Part shown: positions 3,820 through 18,445 of the stretch, piece by piece
Position numbering within the stretch: the stretch's first letter is position 1
How the letters are laid out: every line of letters begins with the position of its first letter
DNA from: an uncultured Bacillota bacterium
GTDB lineage: Bacteria > Bacillota_I > Bacilli_A > RFN20 > CAG-826
Assembly (NCBI GenBank): GCA_949298195.1
Contig: CASFVT010000002.1
Location: 1-46,922 of the forward strand
Reading direction: 5' to 3'
Length of the DNA: 46,922 bases
The notes under the pieces: model-generated
Seen by the model: the letters and a program-made list of their open reading frames with translations, nothing else
Database searches by the model: none
Told to the model about the DNA's origin: nothing
Program-made: the position numbers and the translations under genes

Positions 3820-5250
3820 ATGGACAAGAAAAACGAGGCCATCACCTCACGCGACGTCGACTTCGCCAAGTGGTACACCGATGTGTGCCGCAAGGCCGAG
3901 CTCATGGACTATAGCTCGGTCAAGGGCTTCATCAACTACTTGCCATACGGCTATGGCATCTGGGAGGCCATCAAGGAGTTTGCCGACCGGCTCTTCAAGG
4001 AGAAGGGAGCGGAGAACGTCTACCTTCCCTCGGTCATCCCGATGTCGATGTTCGATCGGGAAAAGGAGCACGTCGAGGGCTTTGCCCCCGAGATCCTCGT
4101 CGCGACCATCGGCGGGGGCAAGCGCCTCGAGGATCCCCTCGTCATCCGCCCGACCAGCGAGATCCTTTTCTCCGACCTCTACAAGCACCTGGTCAAGAGC
4201 TACCGCGACCTCCCCAAGCGCTTCAACCAGTGGTGCTCGGTCGTCCGTTGGGAGAAGACGACCCGCCCCTTCCTGAGGGGAAGCGAGTTCCTTTGGCAAG
4301 AGGGACACTGTCTCTTCGAGACCGAGAAGGAAGCCAACGACAACGCCCTCGAGATGCTCGAGGTCTATGACCGAATCGGTCGCGAATGCCTGGCCATCCC
4401 CTTCCTCAAGGGAAAGAAGAGCGCCCACGAGACCTTCGCCGGGGCAGTGGCCACCTATTCGATCGAGGCCCTCATGCACGACGGGAAGGCCCTGCAGGCC
4501 GGGACGACCCATTACCTCGGGACGGGCTTTGCCAAAGCCGGGGGAATTGCCTTCCAAGGCCGGAACAACGCCCTTGAGACCCCGCATCAATCCTCGTGGG
4601 GCATTTCGACCCGCCTCATCGGGGCCGTCATCATGGTCCACGGAGACGACAACGGCCTCGTCCTTCCCCCGATGGTCGCCCCGATCCAAGCCGTCATCGT
4701 CGGGATCAAGTCCCAAGACGAGAAAGTGAAGGAGGCTTGTAGGGGCCTTTACGAAGAACTGAAACGGGCCGGGATCAGGGTCAAGCTCGACCTCGATCCG
4801 AGCAAGACCCCGGGCTGGAAGTTTGCCGAGTACGAGATGAAGGGGGTTCCCCTCCGAATCGAAATCGGCCCCCGTGACATCGAAAGCGGGCTCTCTGGGC
4901 TTGCCATCCGCTTCTCGGGCGAGAAACGGAGTGTCAAGTTGAACGAAATCGCTCACCAGATCCCCTTGCTTTTGAGGGAAATCCAAGAGGGTATGTACCT
5001 CGCGGCCAAATCCAGGCTCGAGGCTTCGATCGTCGATGTCGAGACGCTCGAGGAGCTGAAAGCCACCCTCGAGAAGGGGGGGTACGCCCGGATGGCCTAT
5101 TGTGGGGAAGAGGAGTGCGAACTGAAGATCAAGGAACTCACCCTCGGGGGAACCGCCCGCTGTATCTACCAAGAGAACGTGGAGGGGAAGACCTGCCCCG
5201 TCTGCGGGAAGAAGGCCACGGTCGTTTCCTACTTCGCGAAGGCCTATTGA
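3820..5250 (+). CDS. proS: Prolyl-tRNA synthetase, short archaeal/Thermus type
   Basis: 476 residues, the size of the Thermus/archaeal-type ProRS and not the longer E. coli type with an inserted editing domain. It charges tRNA-Pro in the cytosol. Class II motifs are visible: the RPTSE motif near residue 110, the motif 2 region RFNQWCSVVRWE with FLRGSEFLWQEGH, and motif 3 in the GLAIRFSGEKR-side region. The anticodon-binding domain follows (VIVGIKS onward). The C-terminal zinc site keeps Cys428, Cys433, Cys459 and Cys462, spaced as in Thermus. The start ATG at 3820 has AAAGGA upstream, inside the preceding gene. A perfect terminator follows. Confidence 0.95.
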   Translation: MDKKNEAITSRDVDFAKWYTDVCRKAELMDYSSVKGFINYLPYGYGIWEAIKEFADRLFKEKGAENVYLPSVIPMSMFDREKEHVEGFAPEILVATIGGGKRLEDPLVIRPTSEILFSDLYKHLVKSYRDLPKRFNQWCSVVRWEKTTRPFLRGSEFLWQEGHCLFETEKEANDNALEMLEVYDRIGRECLAIPFLKGKKSAHETFAGAVATYSIEALMHDGKALQAGTTHYLGTGFAKAGGIAFQGRNNALETPHQSSWGISTRLIGAVIMVHGDDNGLVLPPMVAPIQAVIVGIKSQDEKVKEACRGLYEELKRAGIRVKLDLDPSKTPGWKFAEYEMKGVPLRIEIGPRDIESGLSGLAIRFSGEKRSVKLNEIAHQIPLLLREIQEGMYLAAKSRLEASIVDVETLEELKATLEKGGYARMAYCGEEECELKIKELTLGGTARCIYQENVEGKTCPVCGKKATVVSYFAKAY

Positions 5251-5265
5251 GCGTTAATTCGAGTG

Positions 5266-5288
5266 AGCGGCCATAGGCCGCTTTTTTC
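5266..5288 (+). terminator. Terminator after proS
   Basis: 7-bp stem AGCGGCC/GGCCGCT with a 3-base loop and six T. Confidence 0.92.
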
Positions 5289-5324
5289 TTTCTCCCACCT
5301 AGCCAAGGGCGACGGCTCTTGGGT

Positions 5325-5339
5325 TATAATCCAAGCGAT
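5325..5339 (+). promoter_or_regulatory. -10 element, near-leaderless start of the helicase gene
   Basis: Perfect TATAAT at 5325-5330, 9 bases before ATG 5340. A TTG at 5319 in the same frame lies upstream of the -10 and cannot be the start. Confidence 0.6.
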
Positions 5340-8300
5340 ATGTCCCAAGCGCGTTTCTCTTTCCTCCTCGACGGGCTCGAGGATCTCTCCTATCCCTCAT
5401 ACCAAGCCGAAAAGGCCATCCGCTCCTATTCCCCCGGTGACCGCCCGAACGCCTTTTCCTTCCTCAAGGGCATCTACCTCGAGGGTCACGCCCCGGGGAC
5501 CTACCGTGACCTCGTCATCTCCCTCGAGGCCGATTTCCCCGGTTTTTCCTTCCCCGACGTCCATCTCGCCCGGCTCGGGGTTGCCGAGAAGGCCATCGTC
5601 GACTCCTTTTCCTATGGCCTTGACGAGAAAGCCCTCCTTGAGCTCACGGAACCGCGCGAAGTCCATCTTCGCCTCCGTCTCATTGCCCCCGGGGGCGAGA
5701 TCGCCCATCACGACGCCAAGATCAAGGCCCTTCCGGTTGGCCTGGCCCTCACCAAGGAGGCCGATCCCGTCCTTCTTGCCTCCTACGTGACGAGTGAGGA
5801 CTCCGAAGTCGGGAAGGCTTTCGGGAAAGCCCTCGGGTTGGCCAAGAAAAAGGGCGTCCGCCTCGATGGCTACCTCGACCGTGACCCGAACGCCGTCCTC
5901 GCGGCCGCCGAGACGATCTACCGCTCCCTCCTCGAGGAGAAGATCGAGACCGTGGCCATGCCGACCGGGCGGGGAAGGATCTACGAAAGCGTCGCCCTCC
6001 CCGGCACGACCCTCCTCAATAAGAAGGGCACCTCCCTTGAGATCGCCCTCGTCTACGCTTCCCTCCTCGAGAAGGCGAACCTCCACCCCCTCATCCTCCT
6101 TTACGAGGACAAGGCAGCGGTGGGCCTCTACCTCGATGAGGAACTCGGGAGTTCTCCCCTCAACCGGAACGGGGCCTCGCTTCTGGTCATGGCCAGCCGC
6201 GGCTACGACCGCCTCCTTCTCATCGATCCCTCGAGCGGCCTCCCCCCGGAGGAGGCCCGGAACAAGGCCTATCAGGACCTCGATGTGGGCAAGCGCTTCC
6301 TCCTCGCCATCGACGTCAACGCGGCCAGGAAGGAACACATCCTCCCCCTGCCTACCCCCGATGAGAAAGGCAACATCGTCTTCCCGAGCTTCGAACGGGA
6401 GGGGCCGGATGGCCTCCGGGGAGTCGATGAGGGTTCCCGCCGTTACATCGATAGCGAAGACCGCGGCGACAAAAACCGTTACGACCACTGGCTCGATCGT
6501 CTCCTCGACCTCAATCTCAAGAACCGCCTCATCAACCTCCGCCCGAATAGAAGCCTCCCTCAACTACTGGTCCCCGATGCCGAGAAGTTCCTGGATTTGC
6601 TTAAGGAGAACCGCAAACTCGTCCTCTCTCCCTATGAGAGTTACGTCAGCAACTCGAAGCGGGGGGATGGGCTCCTCGACTTCCCGCTTTCCTATTTCGC
6701 CAAGATCGCGGAGGAGAACTACGAACGGGGCATCGTCCCTTTCCTTCTCTCCGGGGAAGAGGCGAATGACGACGTCATCAAGGCCCTATCCCGGAAAAGC
6801 AACACCGCCCTCGAGGAAAGCGGCTCCAATCCCCTCTTCCTCACCATCGGCCTTCTCCGCTATTTCGACAACGACCGGGCAGCCAGCCGCGGAAAAGGGG
6901 CGATGTATGCCCCGATCCTCCTCCTCCCGGTGAAGATCCCCCTCCGGAAAAGCGGGGCGCACTTCCATTTCGAATACGATTACGATGACATCACCGTCAA
7001 CACGACCCTCTTCGAATACCTCGACCAGGCCTTTGGGATCGACCTCTCGCCCCTGGAAGGGACGATCAGGCGGAAGGACGGTCAGGTCGACCTCCGCCTC
7101 ATCTACAACTACATCCGGGGGAAGATTGCCGCCAAGAAGGGCTTTGCCCTCATCGAGAATGCCTCCGGGATCGGCCTTTTCTCATTCGCCCACTTCGTCA
7201 TGTGGGACGACCTCCGCCGACGGAAGGACGACCTTCTCAAAAACCCCCACATCGCTTCCCTTGTTTCCGGGGAGATCTCCTTCCGGGAGCCGGAAGGCCT
7301 TCTAGGGAAAGAGGAACTCGATTCCTCGAAGGAACCTCTACATCCCCTCCCCCTCCCGGCCGATTCCTCTCAGATCAAGGCCATCGACGATGCCCTCAAG
7401 GGAGCCAGCTTCGTCATGGACGGCCCCCCGGGAACCGGGAAGTCCCAGACCATCGCCAACATGATCGTCGCCTTCCTCACGGAGGGAAAGAAAGTCCTCT
7501 TCGTCGCCGAGAAGGAAGTGGCCCTCGACGTCGTCAAGAAACGTCTCGACCAGATCGGCCTCGGGCGTTTCGCCCTCTTCCTCTCCTCTTCGCGGACGGC
7601 CAAGGGCGAGGTCCTTTCCTCCCTTGGGGAACTGATCGGCCTCGGGGCCCTTAAAAGCGACATCTCGTTCGAGGAGAAAAGCACAGCCTTCAAGAAGAAG
7701 GGCGACGAACTCAACAGGATCGTCGATTCGATCCATGGGAAAGGCCAGTTCCTCTTCTCGATCGAGAAGGGAATCGACCTCTACCTCGAGACCCTCGCGG
7801 GGCGGACGAAGTTCGATTTCCCCCTCGACGAGGCCCGTCGGCTTGACCTTGCGACCTACCGCACGAGCGTCGATTCCATCAAGGAACTCGCCTACGCCGA
7901 CGAGAAGGCCAACGGGGCCGGGGCCTCGCCCTTCACCCCCTTCACCGGCCGGGAGTACAGTCCCATCGTCCGCGATGCCCTCCTCGAGGAACTTCGCCCC
8001 CTCGTCGACCTCGACCAGGAACTCTACTTGGCCGAGCACAATGCCTTCTCTTGCTATCCCAGCCTCCCAAAAACGCGGCAAAACGCCCTCCTCTTCAAGG
8101 AAATCGTCGATCTTGATGCCTCTTCGGGGGGACTTTTCGCCTCCTATTACCTCGATCCGGATTCCCGTTTGAAGGACGAAGAGACACGGCGAACCATTGC
8201 CACAATGGCGAAAAAGGAGGCGGCCAGGAAGAAGATCCTTGCCCTCTTCAAGGAAAGCGCGTTCAACCTTCCCGCCGAAGCCCTCGAACAACGCGAAAGG

Positions 8301-11063
8301 GAGCTTCGGGGCGGCTTCTTCGCCCGACATCGGGCCAAGAAGGACCTCCAAGCCCTTCTCGAGGAGCATCTCCTCGTCAAGCGGAAACTCACGACCGCGG
8401 AACTTAATACCTTCCTCGCGGCGTATCGCGACTACCACGCTTCCGGTCAGGGGAATCCCATCCTCGAGTTCGAAGGGGATAACCTTTCCGCCCGTTTCGA
8501 GGCCACCCTCGAGGCGAGGGCGAAGGTCGAATCCCTCATCGCCTCCTCCCGCGACCCGAAAAAGGCCAGGAAGGAGATCGCCACCGCGAATCCGGGATTC
8601 GGAAGCGAAGCGGCCCGTCGCCTCTCCCGCCTTCTCGATGACCACCTCGGAATCGAGGGCCGTCTTGAAAACAAGCACGCCTTTGACCTCCGCCGTTACG
8701 AGGACGCGAACGACTACTACAAGAAGGAACGGGGAAAGATCGGCGACTGCCTTTCCCGTCCCGGGGAGATGGCCGCCTATTTCGCCTACCTCGAGGCCAA
8801 GGAGAAGTGCCGTGCGCTCTCCGCTTCCCTCGTCGAGCTCTTCGAGAAAGGGAAATGCCCCGCGAAACGTCTTCTGGCCACCTACCAGAATGCCCTCGCC
8901 CTCCGGATCGTGAGCGAGGAAGCCAATAGAAACGGATTGAGCGGCCTCTCCCACGAACGGATCGACCGGCTTCTGGCTTCCTACGCCCAGTCCTTGAAGG
9001 AATACCAAGCCGCCTCGATTGCCGAGTGTGCCGCGGTCATCACCTCCAAATACCCTTCGCCCCAATCGGGGAATGCCGCCTCCAGCGATCTCTACCGGCT
9101 TCGGAAATTGATTGCCAACGGGGGCCGCGGGGTTTCCCTACGGAGCCTCCTCCACGAGTTCGGGGGACTCATCTCGACCCTTTGCCCCTGCTACCTCATG
9201 TCGCCCCTATCGGTCGCCCAGTTCCTCCGGAAGGAAGACCATTTCGACGTGGCCATCTTCGACGAGGCCTCCCAGATCCCGACCAGCGAAGCCATCGGGG
9301 CCATTTCCCATGCCGGTTCGATCGTCGTCGCCGGCGACCAGATGCAGATGCCCCCGACCGACTTCTTCAAATCGACCGTCACGGGGGTCGAGGAAGGGGA
9401 AGATAGCTTCCTTTCCATCGACGAAGACCTCGAATCCCTCCTCGACGACGTCATCGTCATGGGTTACCCCCGGAACCGCCTCAATTTCCATTACCGGTCC
9501 CGGAACGAGAAGCTCATCGCCTTCTCCAACGAACGCTTCTATGGGAATTCGCTGTTTACCTTCCCCTCCCCGAGCGACCGGGGAACCGGGGTCTCCTTCG
9601 TGAAGGTACATGGCGATTACCTCGTCGGACGGGGGATCAACCGTCCCGAGGCCATGGCCCTCGTCGAGGAGGTGAAGCGGCGGCTCTCCGACGAAAACGA
9701 GAGGAAGCGCTCGATCGGGATCGTCACCTTCAACGAGGCCCAGCAGAACCTCATCCTCGACCTCCTCGAGCGGAAGGCCCCCGAGGCCTTCGCCTACGTC
9801 GAGGGAAGGGAACCGATCTTCGTCAAGAACCTCGAGAACGTCCAGGGCGACGAACGGGACGTCATCCTCTTCTCGACGACCTACGGCCCCTCCAAAAGCG
9901 GGGAACTTTCCATCAACTTCGGCCCCCTTTCGCGGGCCAAGGGGGAACGCCGCCTCAACGTGGCCATCTCGCGGGCCCGGGAAGAGATGCTCGTCTATTC
10001 CTCCTTCGAACCGGAGGAAATCCGGGCCGAACGGGCCAAGAACGCCGGGGCCCGCTTCCTCCGCGACTTCCTCTTCTATGCCCGGGATGGGGAGAAGGCC
10101 CTTTACAAGGTGGCCGGGAGCCTTTCCTACGAGGAACGGGGAAAGGTGGCTTCTTGCCTTGCTAGCGACCTTCGGAAGCTTGGCTACGAGGTCGATCTCG
10201 ACGTCGGGACTTCCCTTTTCCGCATCGATTTGGCCATCAAGGGGAACGACGGCGGCTACGCCCTCGGGATCCTCCTCGACGGGGCTTCCTATCTTTCGGC
10301 CCCGACGAGCCAAGACCGGAACCTCGTCCAACCCTCGATCCTCTCTTCCCTTGGCTGGAAGTACATTCGTTTCTATTGCCTCGAGTACTTTGACCGGCCC
10401 GACGAGGTGATCAGGGAAATCGTCAACGTCCTCAATGGGGGGGATGCCCTTGACCTCGATAGCGGCAAACCCGATCTCCCTTCCTTTCAAAAGGAGGAAA
10501 TGAACCTCGCCCCGAACGCCGTCCCATATCGACTTTATCGGGAAGATGCCCCTTCTAATGACGAGGCGGCCCGGATCGATCGCCTCGTCCGGGGAATCGT
10601 CTTCACCGAGGCTCCGGTCGCCCACTCCCTCCTCGAGAGGCGGATCAAGGAGACGCTCGGGCTAAAGGCGTTGACCAGCAAATACCGATCCCTCATCGGG
10701 ATGAGCCTTGAAGGCCTTGCCCCGGTCCGGGAAAACTATCCAAACGAACAGGCCTTCTACTATCCCCCGGGCTTCGACGTCCGTTCCTACCGTTATTACC
10801 GCCCCGACCTCCTCACCGCCGGTCGGAGCGTCGAGGAAGTGGGCTTCGTCGAGCTTTCCAATCTCTATCGCGACATCCTCTTGACCGAGGGGCGCCTCGT
10901 CAAGGAAGACCTTGTGAAGACGGCTCTTCTCCGCCTCGGAAGCCCCGCCTTCCGCAAGAAGGGGAACGACCATCTCCTCTTGGCCATCAAGTGTGCCCTC
11001 AACGAACACCGGGGAATCAAGATCGACGATAGCGGCTACCTGACGCTCGACGATGTCTATTGA
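5340..11063 (+). CDS. Giant DUF4011-type SF1 helicase with transglutaminase-like and Vsr-like domains
   Basis: 1,907 residues. Order: an N-terminal beta-rich region; a transglutaminase-like domain (about 215-265); the DUF4011 signature LDRLLDLNLKNRLINL (about 383-400); a split SF1 helicase with Walker A GPPGTGKS (about 695), DEASQ (about 1308), GDQMQMPP, QGDERDVILFS (about 1502) and RLNVAISRAREEM (about 1540); a Vsr/MTES_1575-like nuclease fold (about 1600-1700); and a DUF3320-like end (about 1765). The motor motifs are all intact. In contrast the usual GTC-D of the transglutaminase domain reads GTSLE and its GHAF reads DKAAV, and the nuclease E-DG reads GILLDG with the following YH as YL, so both flanking enzymes look dead. 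Relatives of this architecture occur in anti-phage loci (family knowledge). GH31 follows 17 bases later. Confidence 0.85.
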   Translation: MSQARFSFLLDGLEDLSYPSYQAEKAIRSYSPGDRPNAFSFLKGIYLEGHAPGTYRDLVISLEADFPGFSFPDVHLARLGVAEKAIVDSFSYGLDEKALLELTEPREVHLRLRLIAPGGEIAHHDAKIKALPVGLALTKEADPVLLASYVTSEDSEVGKAFGKALGLAKKKGVRLDGYLDRDPNAVLAAAETIYRSLLEEKIETVAMPTGRGRIYESVALPGTTLLNKKGTSLEIALVYASLLEKANLHPLILLYEDKAAVGLYLDEELGSSPLNRNGASLLVMASRGYDRLLLIDPSSGLPPEEARNKAYQDLDVGKRFLLAIDVNAARKEHILPLPTPDEKGNIVFPSFEREGPDGLRGVDEGSRRYIDSEDRGDKNRYDHWLDRLLDLNLKNRLINLRPNRSLPQLLVPDAEKFLDLLKENRKLVLSPYESYVSNSKRGDGLLDFPLSYFAKIAEENYERGIVPFLLSGEEANDDVIKALSRKSNTALEESGSNPLFLTIGLLRYFDNDRAASRGKGAMYAPILLLPVKIPLRKSGAHFHFEYDYDDITVNTTLFEYLDQAFGIDLSPLEGTIRRKDGQVDLRLIYNYIRGKIAAKKGFALIENASGIGLFSFAHFVMWDDLRRRKDDLLKNPHIASLVSGEISFREPEGLLGKEELDSSKEPLHPLPLPADSSQIKAIDDALKGASFVMDGPPGTGKSQTIANMIVAFLTEGKKVLFVAEKEVALDVVKKRLDQIGLGRFALFLSSSRTAKGEVLSSLGELIGLGALKSDISFEEKSTAFKKKGDELNRIVDSIHGKGQFLFSIEKGIDLYLETLAGRTKFDFPLDEARRLDLATYRTSVDSIKELAYADEKANGAGASPFTPFTGREYSPIVRDALLEELRPLVDLDQELYLAEHNAFSCYPSLPKTRQNALLFKEIVDLDASSGGLFASYYLDPDSRLKDEETRRTIATMAKKEAARKKILALFKESAFNLPAEALEQRERELRGGFFARHRAKKDLQALLEEHLLVKRKLTTAELNTFLAAYRDYHASGQGNPILEFEGDNLSARFEATLEARAKVESLIASSRDPKKARKEIATANPGFGSEAARRLSRLLDDHLGIEGRLENKHAFDLRRYEDANDYYKKERGKIGDCLSRPGEMAAYFAYLEAKEKCRALSASLVELFEKGKCPAKRLLATYQNALALRIVSEEANRNGLSGLSHERIDRLLASYAQSLKEYQAASIAECAAVITSKYPSPQSGNAASSDLYRLRKLIANGGRGVSLRSLLHEFGGLISTLCPCYLMSPLSVAQFLRKEDHFDVAIFDEASQIPTSEAIGAISHAGSIVVAGDQMQMPPTDFFKSTVTGVEEGEDSFLSIDEDLESLLDDVIVMGYPRNRLNFHYRSRNEKLIAFSNERFYGNSLFTFPSPSDRGTGVSFVKVHGDYLVGRGINRPEAMALVEEVKRRLSDENERKRSIGIVTFNEAQQNLILDLLERKAPEAFAYVEGREPIFVKNLENVQGDERDVILFSTTYGPSKSGELSINFGPLSRAKGERRLNVAISRAREEMLVYSSFEPEEIRAERAKNAGARFLRDFLFYARDGEKALYKVAGSLSYEERGKVASCLASDLRKLGYEVDLDVGTSLFRIDLAIKGNDGGYALGILLDGASYLSAPTSQDRNLVQPSILSSLGWKYIRFYCLEYFDRPDEVIREIVNVLNGGDALDLDSGKPDLPSFQKEEMNLAPNAVPYRLYREDAPSNDEAARIDRLVRGIVFTEAPVAHSLLERRIKETLGLKALTSKYRSLIGMSLEGLAPVRENYPNEQAFYYPPGFDVRSYRYYRPDLLTAGRSVEEVGFVELSNLYRDILLTEGRLVKEDLVKTALLRLGSPAFRKKGNDHLLLAIKCALNEHRGIKIDDSGYLTLDDVY

Positions 11064-11080: not shown

Positions 11081-13264
11081 ATGCAAAGAAAGAACGCTTT
11101 CGAGTATGAAGCCCTCGAGGGCTCGATCATCCGCCTTTTCGACGGCCAGGGAACGGGGCTCTTCGCCAAACCGCGGGTCGTCAATGGGCAAAATGGCTCT
11201 TCCTCGCTCGTACACGGGGGCCTTCGCCTCGACATTGAGGGGGGCCAAATCCGCCTCCTAGCCGGGGAAGAAACGCTTCTTGAAGAGATTCCATACGCCC
11301 CGGATCCCCTCCGGACCTACATTCGTAACCCGATCATCGACCGCGAGCACGGGGAAGTGAAAGGGGGAGTGGGGGAAGGTACCCTCCTCGACGATGGTTT
11401 CCATTACAAGAAGATCGTCAGTTTCAAAGTCGACGAAAGGGCCGAGTTCTATGGCCTCGGCGACCACGTCGGGCCCCTTTCCCGCCGGGGCTATGAGTTC
11501 GTCAACTACAATACAGACGACCCTTCCGACCATACCGAGAACAAGAAAAGCCTCTACAAATCCTTCCCCTTTGTCCTGATTCGCCTTGGCAAAGGGTATC
11601 TCGGGCTATATCTAGACAATTCCCATCGTACCCTCTTCGACTGCCAGGTCGAGCCCGGCCGTTTCACCGTGGCTGCCCTCGACGGGGCCTTGGATTTCTA
11701 TTTTGCCTATGACGAGGATCCGAAGGCGGTCCTCTTCCGCTTCTCAGCTTTCCTTGGGCGGATTTCCCTCCCCCCGCGCTGGGCCTTGGGCCTCCAACAG
11801 ACGCGCTGGGGTTACGACGGGGAACAGGAAATCCTCCGGGTGGTGGAAGGCTATAAGAGAGCCGGGATCCCCCTTTCCGCCGTCGATCTCGACATCGATT
11901 ACATGGACGAGTACCGGGTCTTCAGCTTCGACAAAAACCGCTTCCCCGATCCGAAGGGTTTCTTCGAGAAGATGGAGGAGAAAAAGGTCAAGGTAGTGGC
12001 CATCATCGACCCCGGGGTCAAGAAGGAAAACGGTTACCGCGTCTACGAGAAGATGCACGGGGAGGGGCTTGTCGCCACCCTCGAGGGAAAGGAATACATC
12101 AACGAAGTCTGGCCTGGCGAGGCCGTCTACCCAGCCTTCAATGACGAAAAGACGGCAGCCGCCTGGGGCGATTACCTCAAGGAGATGTTGGATCTCGGGG
12201 TCGCCGGCTTCTGGAATGACATGAACGAGCCCGCTTCCTTCAAGGGGGAACTTCCCCCGGAGGTCGATTTTGCCGGGGTCAAGCACCGGGAAATGCACAA
12301 TCTCTATGGTCTCTACATGGGCCGGGCGACTGCCCGGGCGATGCTTGAGCAAAGCCGTCGACCCTTCGTCATCACCCGGGCTACCTTCATGGGTGGGCAG
12401 AAGGACACGGTGGCCTGGACCGGGGACAACCACTCGACTTTCGATTCCCTCCGCCTTCTACCGAGCCAACTCGCCAACCTCGGCGTAAGCCTATACCCCT
12501 TCGTCGGAAGCGACGTCGGCGGCTTCGGGGGCGATGCGACGCCGGAACTCATTCGGAAATGGGCGGCCTTTGCCGTGGCTTGCCCCCTCTTTCGGAACCA
12601 CTCGGCCATCAACACGAGAAGGCAGGAACCTTTTGTCTTCGACGAAAGGACCGTCGAGGCCTATCGGAAGGCCGCATTGAGACGGTATGAACTGGTTCCC
12701 TTCATCTATGACTGGTTCTTCGCCTCGGTTTTGACGGGGATTCCCTTCCTCCGGCCCCTCTTCCTGGAATTCCCCTCCGACGATGTTACCCGTGACCTCG
12801 GCAACGAACTCTTCCTTGGCAAGGAGCTATTGGCTGCCCCGATTCTCGAGCCGGGGCCCGATGTCAGGGTCGTCTACTTCCCCAAGGGAAGCGTTTATTA
12901 TCCATTCGCCTTCGGCGAGAAGATCGAGGGCGGGAGTTGGGAACCCGTCGAGGGCCAAGACGGCCTCATGCCTCTTTTCGCCCGGGAAGGCAGCGTCGTT
13001 CCCCTCTATCCGGAAGGCCATCACGACCTGACGCGGAATCCGGAAGTCCTCCGCCTCAGGGTCTACCCTGGGCGCGGGAAGCATTACCATTACCTAGATG
13101 CCGGAGACGGCCTTGCCTACAAAAAGGGCGAATATGTCCTCTATGAGTTCCTCAACGACAATGGCAAGATCACTTGCCGCCTTCTCCATAAGGGGATGGA
13201 ATCTTATCGGAAGATAATCGTCGAGGCCGTCGACGGATCATACGAACTTCCCCTGAACGACTAG
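11081..13264 (+). CDS. GH31 family alpha-glucosidase
   Basis: 727 residues. Family GH31 enzymes hydrolyse alpha-glucosides from the non-reducing end with retention. The catalytic nucleophile is Asp380 in FWNDMNEP and the acid/base is Asp449 in WTGDNHS; the upstream substrate-pocket signature VDLDIDYMDEY is also present. An N-terminal beta-sandwich (Gal-mutarotase type, about 1-225) precedes the barrel. No signal peptide, so it should be cytosolic, acting on imported maltose- or isomaltose-like sugars; exact linkage cannot be read. Start ATG 11081 has GGGAGGA 7 bases upstream; a TTG at 11060 overlaps the helicase stop and is less likely. It is co-transcribed with the helicase gene, which is an odd pairing. 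Its stop overlaps the stop of the convergent gene in one CTAG. Confidence 0.92.
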   Translation: MQRKNAFEYEALEGSIIRLFDGQGTGLFAKPRVVNGQNGSSSLVHGGLRLDIEGGQIRLLAGEETLLEEIPYAPDPLRTYIRNPIIDREHGEVKGGVGEGTLLDDGFHYKKIVSFKVDERAEFYGLGDHVGPLSRRGYEFVNYNTDDPSDHTENKKSLYKSFPFVLIRLGKGYLGLYLDNSHRTLFDCQVEPGRFTVAALDGALDFYFAYDEDPKAVLFRFSAFLGRISLPPRWALGLQQTRWGYDGEQEILRVVEGYKRAGIPLSAVDLDIDYMDEYRVFSFDKNRFPDPKGFFEKMEEKKVKVVAIIDPGVKKENGYRVYEKMHGEGLVATLEGKEYINEVWPGEAVYPAFNDEKTAAAWGDYLKEMLDLGVAGFWNDMNEPASFKGELPPEVDFAGVKHREMHNLYGLYMGRATARAMLEQSRRPFVITRATFMGGQKDTVAWTGDNHSTFDSLRLLPSQLANLGVSLYPFVGSDVGGFGGDATPELIRKWAAFAVACPLFRNHSAINTRRQEPFVFDERTVEAYRKAALRRYELVPFIYDWFFASVLTGIPFLRPLFLEFPSDDVTRDLGNELFLGKELLAAPILEPGPDVRVVYFPKGSVYYPFAFGEKIEGGSWEPVEGQDGLMPLFAREGSVVPLYPEGHHDLTRNPEVLRLRVYPGRGKHYHYLDAGDGLAYKKGEYVLYEFLNDNGKITCRLLHKGMESYRKIIVEAVDGSYELPLND

Positions 13265-13746
13265 GGGAGCTGTTTTTGGGGAATCGGGACTACCGGGAGG
13301 GGGCGACCGGACTTTTCGGCGAGGAAAAGGGCGATCGAACGGAAATAGGCATATAGTTGCTTGGCATCAGTGTCGGGATAATCGACGTAGCGCCTTTCAA
13401 GGTTCCGCCCGTCCGGGTTGAAGAGGTAATCGGGAAGGAGGAACGGCTCGAGGTCAAGGAACTGGACCTCGGCATGGCGGTAGGGTAGCCCTTCCCGACC
13501 GACGTGCTTCCCCTTGACGAGGGAAACGATTGTCCCGAAGCCCCCCTTTACCAGTTCCTTGAAGGAATCCTGGTCTTCTTTTGAAAGAAAAAACTCGGCA
13601 AAACGGTCTTCTTTCTCTAGGAAACGCCGGCTCCGGACAACGATTCGGCCATTTTCGAGATCGACGGCATAGATATGGTGGACCGGGTCGATGTCCCCTT
13701 CGTAGAATGAGGCGTCGATGAGGGATATTTGAACGAAATAGGCCAC
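13261..13746 (-). CDS. Hypothetical cytosolic protein
   Basis: 161 residues, no recognised family, no membrane helix. Alternating short beta strands and acidic loops dominate (HHIYAVDLENGRIVV, then an EEKED-rich helix), and the C-terminal half has an amphipathic helix ending in a proline-rich tail. The start is GTG at 13746: on the minus strand CATAAT ends 6 bases upstream and there is no ribosome site, so the transcript should be leaderless. The TAG stop shares the CTAG tetramer at 13261-13264 with the TAG of the GH31 gene on the other strand, leaving no room for a terminator between the genes. Confidence 0.65.
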   Translation of the reverse strand: MAYFVQISLIDASFYEGDIDPVHHIYAVDLENGRIVVRSRRFLEKEDRFAEFFLSKEDQDSFKELVKGGFGTIVSLVKGKHVGREGLPYRHAEVQFLDLEPFLLPDYLFNPDGRNLERRYVDYPDTDAKQLYAYFRSIALFLAEKSGRPLPVVPIPQKQLP

Positions 13747-14549: not shown

Positions 14550-15449
14550 ATGCAAGCGAAGACCAAGACTCTCATCATTACCCTTTCCGTTCTCGGGGTG
14601 GCTGTGGCCGTCGGCATCCCGACGGGGCTCATTCTAGGGGAGAACCTGAAAGCCCCGACGGTCAGCTATGGCGATTTTTCGGGCGACGCCTATTCCTACG
14701 ACATGACGGCTGGGCGGATCAAGTACCAAGCCTGCGACGGCGATTACTCTGACCTTACTGCGGTCGATGCCTTCAATATCTCTCTCGATCTCCTCTCTGA
14801 CATTGAGAACTACCGTCTCCAAGGCTACGGGCAGGCCACGGCCCTCATCGTTACCCAAGACATCAGGTCGACCATTATCCGGGACGGCGACTCGTATTTC
14901 GAGGAGAGCTTCTCCAAGTCGAGCATGGTTCAGTGTGCCTGGCGGATGTATCAAAGCGAAGATGATGTCAGGCAATACCGAGGCGAACTCACTTCCCTCG
15001 AGACGGCGACTTTCGACGAGACCGAGGGCGAGACGTATTCCTTCCCTTCCTATGCCGAACGGATGGGGCGGCTGATTTCCGATCGTTCCATTTACATTGT
15101 GTCCGACAAGACGGTCCTGCCGGACGGAATCTCCAGTTTTGAGAAGGACGGGGACGGTTACCGCCTTCACATCGATCTCCATCCGGGGCTGGCTGTCCTC
15201 AATTACGTGAAGCAAATGCAGACCGTCTCCGACCTACCGTCACCCCCGTCCTTCAACTCTTTCAGTCTGGAGATGGAGATGGACGAGAGCCTCCGGCCGG
15301 TTTCCCTCACCACCTTCGAAAGCTACTATGCGACGACTTCGATGGGCATCGGATCGAACGTCAACGGCGAGATGACCACCTATTTCGAACTCGACGGGGG
15401 CTTCGAGATTCCCTCGCTCAATGAACCAGAGTCTTACGACCACGTCTAA
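14550..15449 (+). CDS. Membrane-anchored exported protein of unknown function
   Basis: 299 residues. Residues 3-8 are basic, then a single helix of about 22 residues (LIITLSVLGVAVAVGIPTG) acts as an uncleaved signal anchor; the rest (about 270 residues) should lie outside the membrane. The outer part is rich in beta strands, Asp, Ser and Tyr, with two Cys only. No lipobox and no sorting motif. The start ATG 14550 has only a weak purine stretch (GAAGGG) upstream. The next gene starts 11 bases after the stop with a good ribosome site and has the same N-terminal layout, so the two form an operon and probably act together at the cell surface (inference). Overall look resembles lipoproteins of the LppX/LprG lipid-carrier type, but I cannot show homology. 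Confidence 0.7.
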   Translation: MQAKTKTLIITLSVLGVAVAVGIPTGLILGENLKAPTVSYGDFSGDAYSYDMTAGRIKYQACDGDYSDLTAVDAFNISLDLLSDIENYRLQGYGQATALIVTQDIRSTIIRDGDSYFEESFSKSSMVQCAWRMYQSEDDVRQYRGELTSLETATFDETEGETYSFPSYAERMGRLISDRSIYIVSDKTVLPDGISSFEKDGDGYRLHIDLHPGLAVLNYVKQMQTVSDLPSPPSFNSFSLEMEMDESLRPVSLTTFESYYATTSMGIGSNVNGEMTTYFELDGGFEIPSLNEPESYDHV

Positions 15450-15460
15450 AGGAGAACACA

Positions 15461-18445
15461 ATGGAACCGAAAACTAGGAAAAAACTTCGCAAAACAGCCT
15501 TCTTCAGCGCCTTATTCACGGTTGCTTTCTCGACTTCGACTGCCATTACCTACTTCCTATCGCCAGTCCGGACGGTGGCTTTCGTTCCCCCGGAGAGCTC
15601 AGAACCAGTGACCCCGACCCCCGAGGCCCCGACCGATCAAATCGGAATGCTACTCAATCGCCTGAGCATCCTTCCGGGGCTAAGTGGCAAGATTTCGGGC
15701 ACCATCGACTTCCCGAAGGCGAGTGGTTCGGCCGAGCTCTCAACCGCTAGCATCGATGCCGATTTGGTCTTGAGCCTCGCGGATTCTTCTTCCTATGGCT
15801 TTGCCCTCGATATTGAAGCCGGGCTCAATGGCTCGAAAAAGTCCCTCAGCGCGGCCTATCTCGATGGCGAACTCTGCTTCGACCTTCTTGGGGCCAAGTA
15901 CTACGCGGAAGGCGAGGATCTCAACGAAGCCCTCAATCACCTGGTTCGAATCTTCGGCGAGGAGGCCTTTGAGACCCCGGATCTATTGGCCCTCCTCGGC
16001 GACCTCGACCCGAGCATGCTCGATTCCATCGATATCACGGAGAACGATTCCTTCATCCTCTTCGACATCGGGCTCAATTTGAGCGAAGGCGGGGAAGCTT
16101 CCCACATTTATCTGACTACCGATAGCCAATATACCCCAACGAATCTCCTGATCGAGGATTTGACCGTTGGTGACCTCACCGTCGACGTTACGGGTTCCTT
16201 CAAGCTCGAGGAGAACGGCCCGACGGCTGTCCGGAGCCGCTTCCCTTCTTCCTTCGAGGAAAGCGGATACCGGCCAATCGTCAATAGCCTCGGCCTCGTT
16301 GAACGGGTCTATGGCTTGGTCGAGAATCCTCGCTTCGGGGTCGCCCTCGAGGCCAGGATTCTCAACTCCTCGATGATGAAACCCGGCGACGAAGAGTCCG
16401 ATTACGCCCTTAACCTCGACCTCGAGGGACAAGTCGACCTCGTCGATGGAGCCTTCGATGCCAATCTCGCCCTCTTAGGCGATGGGCAAGACGCCCCCGT
16501 TGCCTCCACCATCGCCCTTGGGTACCGGGGCGATGAAAGCGGGGAAGAAGGCAAAGCCTACCTCTCTTACGGGAAAGGCATGAACCTCAGGATGTCAACT
16601 CTGACCATGGACGCCCTCTTGGCCAGAATGGAGGCTCTCGTCCCAAGCGATTCCCCCTCCTTGATCGATTCGTTGCTCTTCAATGACGAACTCAAAGCCG
16701 TTGCCGCCGGCGAATACGAACGGGTCATCGATGCCGTGACCGGCTTCTCGACCCCGGCCGACAACATCCTCGAATTGGGCCTTGACCTCTCGCATCTCGG
16801 CCTCGGCGATGGAGCCGAGGTGAAGGTGCGGATCGACGGCCGGGATGTCGAGGAAGGCTTTGCTGGCAACACGGCCCGTCTGGAGATTAGCGGTGTCGAG
16901 GCCTTCGGCATCGAACTCGACGCCTGCATTGAACTCACTCCCTATTCCGAACTGGCCAGCATCGATTTCGATGCCTACGATTCCCTCGATGGCCTACCAA
17001 CCCTCTTCGACCAAGTCTCGACCCTCGTCAACGAAAAGAAGGCTGGTTTCCATTTGGAAGGCTCCCTCGTCGACGAGGCGGGACTTGGCATGGATGAACT
17101 GAGCGGCGACCTCCAATTCGACCTCGCGGGCATGATGATGACCGGTTCCCTTAGGATCGGCGAGAAGACCGCCGAATACGAACGCGACCACACCCTCGTC
17201 CTCGATCTCAATGGGAAATCCGCCTCCCCCGCGGCCGTCCGCTTCGCCTTCAACGAGAAGATGAAGGGCAAATTGACCGTCGATACCCTCGGGGGAATCC
17301 TCGAGCTTGCCACCGGACTCCTCAGTTCGGATGATGAGCGGTGGGACATCTTCCTCGATCCTCTCCGGGAGATGATGGTCGATACCGTCGTCTCCGACCT
17401 CATGGCCGGGAAGATTGCCGCCCTAGCCAAATATTCATTCATCGATTCCCTTCGAGTGAACGCGGAATCCATCGCCCTCACCATCGACATGGTCGCCCTC
17501 GGGATGGGCGGGAAGCTCAACCTCACGGCCAAACTCGATGGGAATGGGGAAATATCCTCTCTCGCCCTCACCGATCTGAGCCTCGGGAGCAGCACCCTCA
17601 ACCTCGCCATCGGACTCGTGGATTATGACGGGGAAGTCGAAAACCGCCTCGATCCGAATGATGCCTATATGGATTTCTCGAGCCTCGACCTCTTGGTCGG
17701 CGACCTCCTCAACACGGCGAGTCTCGGGACATACCACTTCGATAACGGGGTTCTTTCCATCTCCTTGCTCGGCTTCATCAGCGGAGCCGACCTCGACCTC
17801 GATGCCGATGTCCGGGTCGATGGACTCAACGTCGAGGCCTACGTCCATCTTGGCGGTCTTCGGAGCGGTGCCCTTGCCCTGGTGACCGAAGGCTACATCG
17901 GTTCAAGCCGCGACACCTACATCTATTACGACGGACGGGACGGCCGGAGCGACCTCTACATCAATAACGTCCAGACCGGTTGGCTTGGGGAGCGTGCCTC
18001 GACATACAAATACACGGCCGCCTCGTTCCTCGAGAACCCAATCAAGATCATCATGAAGGACATCCTCTCCCTCTCCGACGGGGCTTATGACCTCATTGCC
18101 GGTAGCGATAGCGAGCCGACGGGGGAGCCGATTGCCTACGAAAGCATCGTCACCGCCTATGCCTATGACGAAGCCAATCGCCGCTTCGACCTCGGGGTGG
18201 GGCTTCCGACCCTCCTCCAGTCTTCCATTCTTTCCGATTTGACGGCCAGCCTCTACGTAGGCGAGGTCGGGGGAATCGATTACCTCACCCGGATCGTCGG
18301 TGGCCTCGACATCGTCGGGGGACTTGCCAAAATCGAACTCGACGCGAGTCTCTCGAACATTGGTGCCGATTCCTTCTGGAGCAACCCCGCGAACGCCTAT
18401 GCCACCTACTTGTCTGCCCACGGAGGGGATGGCTATACGGCTTGA
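15461..18445 (+). CDS. Large exported beta-rich repeat protein
   Basis: 994 residues. A basic N-terminus and a helix at about 12-32 form a signal peptide or anchor, followed by a Pro/Thr/Glu linker (about 38-60). The remainder is built from several similar beta-rich modules of about 200 residues: each has a run of alternating Asp/Leu strands (as in ALNLDLEGQVDLVDG), then a Tyr-containing strand (AYLSYGKGMNLRMS), then a helical part (LDALLARME type). At least three to four such modules can be seen by eye near residues 70, 290, 520 and 680. No sorting signal, catalytic motif or metal site is evident. AAAGGAG lies 6 bases before ATG. A function in binding lipids, glycans or other cells is possible but not shown. 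A two-way terminator follows. Confidence 0.75.
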   Translation: MEPKTRKKLRKTAFFSALFTVAFSTSTAITYFLSPVRTVAFVPPESSEPVTPTPEAPTDQIGMLLNRLSILPGLSGKISGTIDFPKASGSAELSTASIDADLVLSLADSSSYGFALDIEAGLNGSKKSLSAAYLDGELCFDLLGAKYYAEGEDLNEALNHLVRIFGEEAFETPDLLALLGDLDPSMLDSIDITENDSFILFDIGLNLSEGGEASHIYLTTDSQYTPTNLLIEDLTVGDLTVDVTGSFKLEENGPTAVRSRFPSSFEESGYRPIVNSLGLVERVYGLVENPRFGVALEARILNSSMMKPGDEESDYALNLDLEGQVDLVDGAFDANLALLGDGQDAPVASTIALGYRGDESGEEGKAYLSYGKGMNLRMSTLTMDALLARMEALVPSDSPSLIDSLLFNDELKAVAAGEYERVIDAVTGFSTPADNILELGLDLSHLGLGDGAEVKVRIDGRDVEEGFAGNTARLEISGVEAFGIELDACIELTPYSELASIDFDAYDSLDGLPTLFDQVSTLVNEKKAGFHLEGSLVDEAGLGMDELSGDLQFDLAGMMMTGSLRIGEKTAEYERDHTLVLDLNGKSASPAAVRFAFNEKMKGKLTVDTLGGILELATGLLSSDDERWDIFLDPLREMMVDTVVSDLMAGKIAALAKYSFIDSLRVNAESIALTIDMVALGMGGKLNLTAKLDGNGEISSLALTDLSLGSSTLNLAIGLVDYDGEVENRLDPNDAYMDFSSLDLLVGDLLNTASLGTYHFDNGVLSISLLGFISGADLDLDADVRVDGLNVEAYVHLGGLRSGALALVTEGYIGSSRDTYIYYDGRDGRSDLYINNVQTGWLGERASTYKYTAASFLENPIKIIMKDILSLSDGAYDLIAGSDSEPTGEPIAYESIVTAYAYDEANRRFDLGVGLPTLLQSSILSDLTASLYVGEVGGIDYLTRIVGGLDIVGGLAKIELDASLSNIGADSFWSNPANAYATYLSAHGGDGYTA

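Follow-up and report, generated by a model that had tools for sequence, protein, structure and literature searches.

Described relatives

Giant proteins in which a transglutaminase, an SF1 helicase, a Vsr and a winged-helix domain follow one another, fused to HEPN (the MTES_1575 type), have been described, and these proteins are predicted to cleave DNA, and possibly proteins, in defence (PMC3710099). Among the named families, the Bacteroides-type anti-phage protein ProA (NCBIfam NF058533) is represented by a model of 1903 positions; a literature search for the origin of the name did not find the source paper. Hhe (NF042953, and the PADLOC model Hhe) is a second DUF4011 helicase named as anti-phage, and PADLOC also holds the candidate system PDC-S37. 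A core DUF4011 gene at the margin of a defence hotspot has been reported in Pseudomonas aeruginosa (PMC10250203).

The protein considered here is encoded in a contig of an uncultured Bacillota bacterium, the whole analysed stretch of which (46,922 nucleotides) is referred to as the window. An uninterrupted open reading frame on the forward strand runs from an ATG at 5340 to a stop at 11063 and encodes 1907 amino acids, and its orthologues can be aligned from residues 1-5 through to the C-terminus. NF058533 is the closest NCBIfam model, matched end to end and in the same domain order (residues 37-1867 to model positions 7-1900) with 1231 bits, which lies under the equivalog cut-off of 1500 bits; several congeners fall just short of it (1387-1482 bits) and one, G029, passes it with 1509. 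By its sequence the window protein is thus best described as a ProA-type relative and is not filed as an NF058533 equivalog. It is more distant from Hhe (574 bits, where the cut-off is 2000). The closest PADLOC model is that of PDC-S37, with 841 bits over residues 380-1886, although this match (model positions 9-1533 of 1550) begins past the N-terminal domain and PDC-S37 is itself a candidate system. The order of the putative transglutaminase-like, helicase, Vsr-like and candidate winged-helix domains is that of the published giants, from which the window protein differs in having neither the nuclease glutamate nor the Cys-His pair of the transglutaminase-like (TGL) domain. No Pfam match to HEPN, whose families diverge strongly, was found in the protein.

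Domain organization and phylogenetic placement

Pfam matches over the cut-off comprise DUF4011, AAA_11/AAA_12 and MTES_1575, all on the forward strand as are the remaining features of the gene. The putative TGL domain (approximately residues 185-345; 5892-6374) is followed by DUF4011 (PF13195, residues 387-561; 6498-7022; 89 bits) and by an SF1 motor in two parts. The first part (7329-7649) includes the Walker A motif GPPGTGKSQT at residue 695 (7422-7451), and the second (9207-10094) carries motifs II-VI, including FDEASQ from residue 1307, VAGDQMQMPP from 1330, HYRS, VQGDERD and LNVAISRA. Motifs I, II, III and IV-VI are complete and near-invariant in an alignment across the genus, which confirms the statement of the first-pass annotation that the motor is intact. 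Beyond the motor lies the MTES_1575 domain (PF18741, residues 1600-1700; 10137-10439), a predicted Vsr-like restriction-endonuclease fold that passes the gathering score of 38.2 with 65.3 bits. A weak DUF3320 match under the Pfam cut-off (residues 1743-1777; 10566-10670; E 0.0076) and a candidate winged-helix-like domain (residues 1830-1906; 10827-11057), the latter from a low-confidence model with Z-scores of up to 10 to winged helices, complete the protein.

Homologues were drawn from the genus, the order and the phylum, and from plasmid and phage records; a scan of viral contigs yielded no relative. A tree of 64 proteins was built from 403 columns of the motor, with the trait-bearing TGL and nuclease domains excluded. 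The window protein groups with the above-cut-off ProA proteins, apart from the Pseudomonadota long forms and the short forms, in a ProA-type clade (40 rows; support 100/95) in which the Bacilli long forms are joined by a Bacteroides finegoldii protein. A retron-type reverse transcriptase (PADLOC RT_III-A; L106, 13822-14952) adjoins the B. finegoldii gene.

The Vsr-like domain

Active MTES_1575 domains are recognized by the Asp and Glu of RIDLA...GIExDG. When the window protein is aligned with Pseudomonadota homologues, its RIDLA, GILLDG and YLS correspond to RIDLA, GIECDG and YHS, such that Asp1630 (10227-10229) is kept and Leu1645 (10272-10274) occupies the position of the glutamate. These replacements had been proposed in the first-pass annotation, and the alignment bears them out. 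The change of YHS to YLS (Leu1652) is equally real, but it was rejected as a sign of a dead nuclease, as the histidine is found in just 9 of the 18 Glu-bearing homologues.

The glutamate is absent from the ProA-type clade without exception (0 of 40), with L, I or M in its place, and this includes the proteins over the ProA cut-off (L076-L079, L007, and B. finegoldii with 2197 bits), which differ from the window protein in keeping the Cys-His pair of the TGL domain. A column comparison of 39 clade members with 18 homologues, the latter picked for bearing the glutamate and so revealing what accompanies it, not how frequent it is, uncovered two further changes that had escaped the earlier annotation. 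At position 1661 an acidic residue (D/E) is present in 18/18 Glu-bearing homologues and in 1/39 clade members, and at position 1664 a basic residue (R/K) in 18/18 and 0/39, in company with the glutamate at 1645 (18/18 and 0/39); the window protein has Asn1661 and Gln1664 (10320-10331). Most homologues outside the clade retain the glutamate, with additional changes on the tree in Acinetobacter, L038, L119 and L120-L122. As read from the tree and the alignment, the glutamate was lost in the ancestor of the entire ProA-type clade, the Bacteroides protein included.

Modelling of the C-terminal region reached only low confidence (mean pLDDT 50, with some of the nuclease core at 60-75), yet residues 15-119 of the model match the nuclease-like structure 3hrl (Z 10.7) and the catalytic domain of I-Bth0305I (3r3p, Z 9.9), and winged helices are matched by its final 77 residues. 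The model supports a nuclease fold and does not speak to active-site geometry. Searches of PDB sequences with the C-terminal profile, the N-terminal profile and a Klebsiella nuclease domain returned nothing useful.

The transglutaminase-like domain

Assignment of the N-terminal domain draws on weak Transglut_core and DUF553 matches of intact relatives (Transglut_core E 0.005 at best, under the cut-off) and on the published annotation (PMC3710099), and is to be read as provisional; a model of the window's domain (mean pLDDT 46) and the PDB search made with it were uninformative. The Cys-His pair of transglutaminase-like peptidases is missing from the window protein: GTSLE (230-234) aligns with GTCLD of relatives, placing Ser232 (6033-6035) at the cysteine, and DKAAV (257-261) aligns with GHAF, placing Lys258 (6111-6113) at the histidine, as had been suggested at first reading.

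Both residues are intact in most of the ProA-type clade and in all aligned Pseudomonadota and cyanobacterial long forms. Joint loss is seen in the window protein and L003-L006, where Ser is combined with Lys or Gly, as well as in L048, L098 and the L089-L097 group, and L010 has Ser at the cysteine position with the histidine retained. Parsimony requires 5 changes of the cysteine and 4 of the histidine; among 5 independent pairs joint loss occurred in 4, and the number of pairs is too small for significance (sign test, p 0.125). In the lineage of the window the loss is limited to the window protein and four close orthologues, two of these being near-duplicates of each other. The first-pass annotation had described a loss at both ends of this protein and had proposed that orthologues be inspected for shared substitutions. 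Both sites are indeed lost, but not as a double loss peculiar to this protein: the nuclease change is clade-wide and old, while the TGL loss is a distinct event, recent and local to the window's closest relatives. The window protein is in this sense a typical member of the ProA type to which a single local loss has been added, and the nuclease change shared by the clade is of greater interest.

Selective constraint

Between the window protein and L003, dN/dS is approximately 0.1 in the second part of the motor, 0.2 in the nuclease domain and 0.33 in the TGL domain, and between L004 and L006 the values are about 0.06, 0.17 and 0.13; dS is close to saturation in several pairs. Overall, the disarmed nuclease domain shows dN/dS of about 0.17-0.3, and its identity within the window's clade (0.69-0.90) exceeds that of the TGL domain, the insert and the winged helix. 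For the TGL domain, lineages that lost Cys and His give about 0.13-0.4 and most intact pairs approximately 0.02-0.1 (L007/L008, L011/L016, L018/L022, L018/L020, L078/L079), although L076/L077, likewise intact, reaches approximately 0.6, so that the contrast between intact and dead domains is not clean. Both end domains are held below neutrality (dN/dS <1). A plain pseudogene was rejected on the basis of dN/dS <1 in every domain, the invariant motor and the full-length frames in most genomes.

Possible functions of a probably disarmed giant

Taken together, the best explanation of the window protein, to which a probability of roughly 0.5 is assigned, is that of a non-cutting translocase or remodeller; the protein probably works without cutting anything itself. 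The SF1 motor would bind nucleic acid and use ATP to move along it or remodel it. DNA may be held or recognized by the winged helix together with the disarmed Vsr-like domain, and the TGL fold would have no more than a structural or binding role, whereas that of sister lineages is apparently still catalytic. A remodelling or scaffolding role of this kind had been put forward in the first-pass annotation, and the intact motor, the end sites devoid of their usual residues and the purifying selection agree with it. The replacement of the three nuclease positions in 39, 38 and 39 of 39 clade members also counts in its favour, as do the presence of the B. finegoldii ProA in the clade, the good conservation of the disarmed domain and the retention of the gene in most genus genomes. 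The likeliest purpose of such activity would be defence against phage or foreign DNA by displacing or blocking DNA transactions, as the names of the nearest families suggest.

Of 37 genus genomes, 33 carry the gene, usually directly after proS and a protein of approximately 600 amino acids, with three genomes using another shared place, and its divergence correlates weakly with that of proS (rho 0.33, Mantel p 0.011). The anti-phage link drawn at first reading holds through the family only; in the genus, the position of the gene next to proS on the chromosome is largely constant, and it does not lie in a variable island. Defence genes are not typically inherited vertically at one constant location, which argues against a defence role. 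It is conceivable, if rather unlikely, that the protein is a chromosomal maintenance factor engaged in repair or in the remodelling of replication conflicts or R-loops, and the core DUF4011 gene of P. aeruginosa fits with this, though it lies at the margin of a defence hotspot. In six genomes JetA adjoins the gene (G011, G018, G021, G025, G028, G032), followed by JetB and JetC wherever the flanks were read (five of the six), and no SMC hinge (except within the JetC of G006) and no ScpA was detected in the 37 genus genomes, with controls including B. subtilis positive. JetABC might substitute as condensin in those members of the genus that have it. Maintenance is hard to reconcile with the four genomes that have proS followed by other genes, where the absence of the helicase gene from the proS place is real in those assemblies and the gene is therefore dispensable, and the nearest named families are anti-phage.

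Several features around the gene may be recorded here. A TATAAT box (5325-5330, forward strand) ends 9 nt before the ATG, with a box at the same place in L007, L008, L009, L013 and L032-L035; this arrangement, a TATAAT-like box ending some 4-10 nt short of the start codon and no Shine-Dalgarno sequence, is common to the window and many orthologues, and the transcript is possibly leaderless. Behind proS (5250-5292), an inverted repeat with a T run on its downstream side, spotted by eye, looks like an intrinsic terminator dividing proS from the helicase gene. Downstream, a small protein on the opposite strand (13261-13746) has no Pfam match and is also encoded close to the helicase gene at seven further loci of the genus (cluster c2), and two adjoining forward-strand reading frames (14550-18445; 299 and 994 amino acids) have no Pfam, NCBIfam or PADLOC match.

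A second alternative, and an unlikely one, is that the Vsr-like domain is still a nuclease whose rebuilt site uses Asp1630, Asp1647 and Asp1659 instead of the glutamate. Vsr-like nucleases of the EDxHD type differ in the residues used for catalysis. The EDxHD family has been described (PMC3943268), and an altered metal site is made possible by the near-invariance of the three aspartates in a strongly conserved domain (Asp1647 and Asp1659 in 39/39 clade members, Asp1630 in 37/39), which counts against the non-cutting reading. The same residues are, however, near-invariant in the Glu-bearing homologues (18/18 for 1630 and 1647, 16/18 for 1659), so that they may be structural or represent half of the site; moreover, two clade members have Asn at 1630, and the base at 1664 and the acid at 1661 are lost along with the glutamate.

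It is improbable that a partner protein provides the nuclease, with ProA only its motor, as the first-pass annotation had envisaged with a second factor. An intact motor beside a lost nuclease, and JetABC directly downstream in a subclade, would suit such an arrangement, but JetABC there comes without the nuclease JetD, and no nuclease gene was found among the conserved neighbours across the genus flanks. In the window's own genome a JetD-type nuclease was sought as partner and not found, though JetABC is present. Regarding the Jet genes in general, JetA passes the cut-off in 15 of 37 genus genomes and JetD_C in one (G006), no DUF3322 was found in the genus genomes, and JetABC, a Wadjet-like SMC complex without JetD, is seen at 6097-11397 of L137 (G000:C31:13000-30000) and in L138-L148. 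Lastly, that the gene is decaying and the losses reflect drift is very improbable. In favour of it, conservation of the TGL domain as compared with DUF4011 tends to be lower in pairs from lineages that lost Cys and His, a contrast that is not clean; the mostly full-length frames, the invariant motor and dN/dS <1 in every domain speak against it.

Implications for the family

The non-cutting reading may, tentatively, be extended from the window protein to its relatives, in that the whole ProA-type clade would form a nuclease-free class of helicase defence proteins acting by translocation or remodelling, in which the protease domain has been repeatedly disarmed and the machine kept. The established account of these giants is that of enzymes with several weapons, which cut DNA and perhaps proteins as well (PMC3710099). 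Should the nuclease be disarmed throughout an anti-phage clade, this account would fail there, and the motor itself would be the weapon or the sensor.
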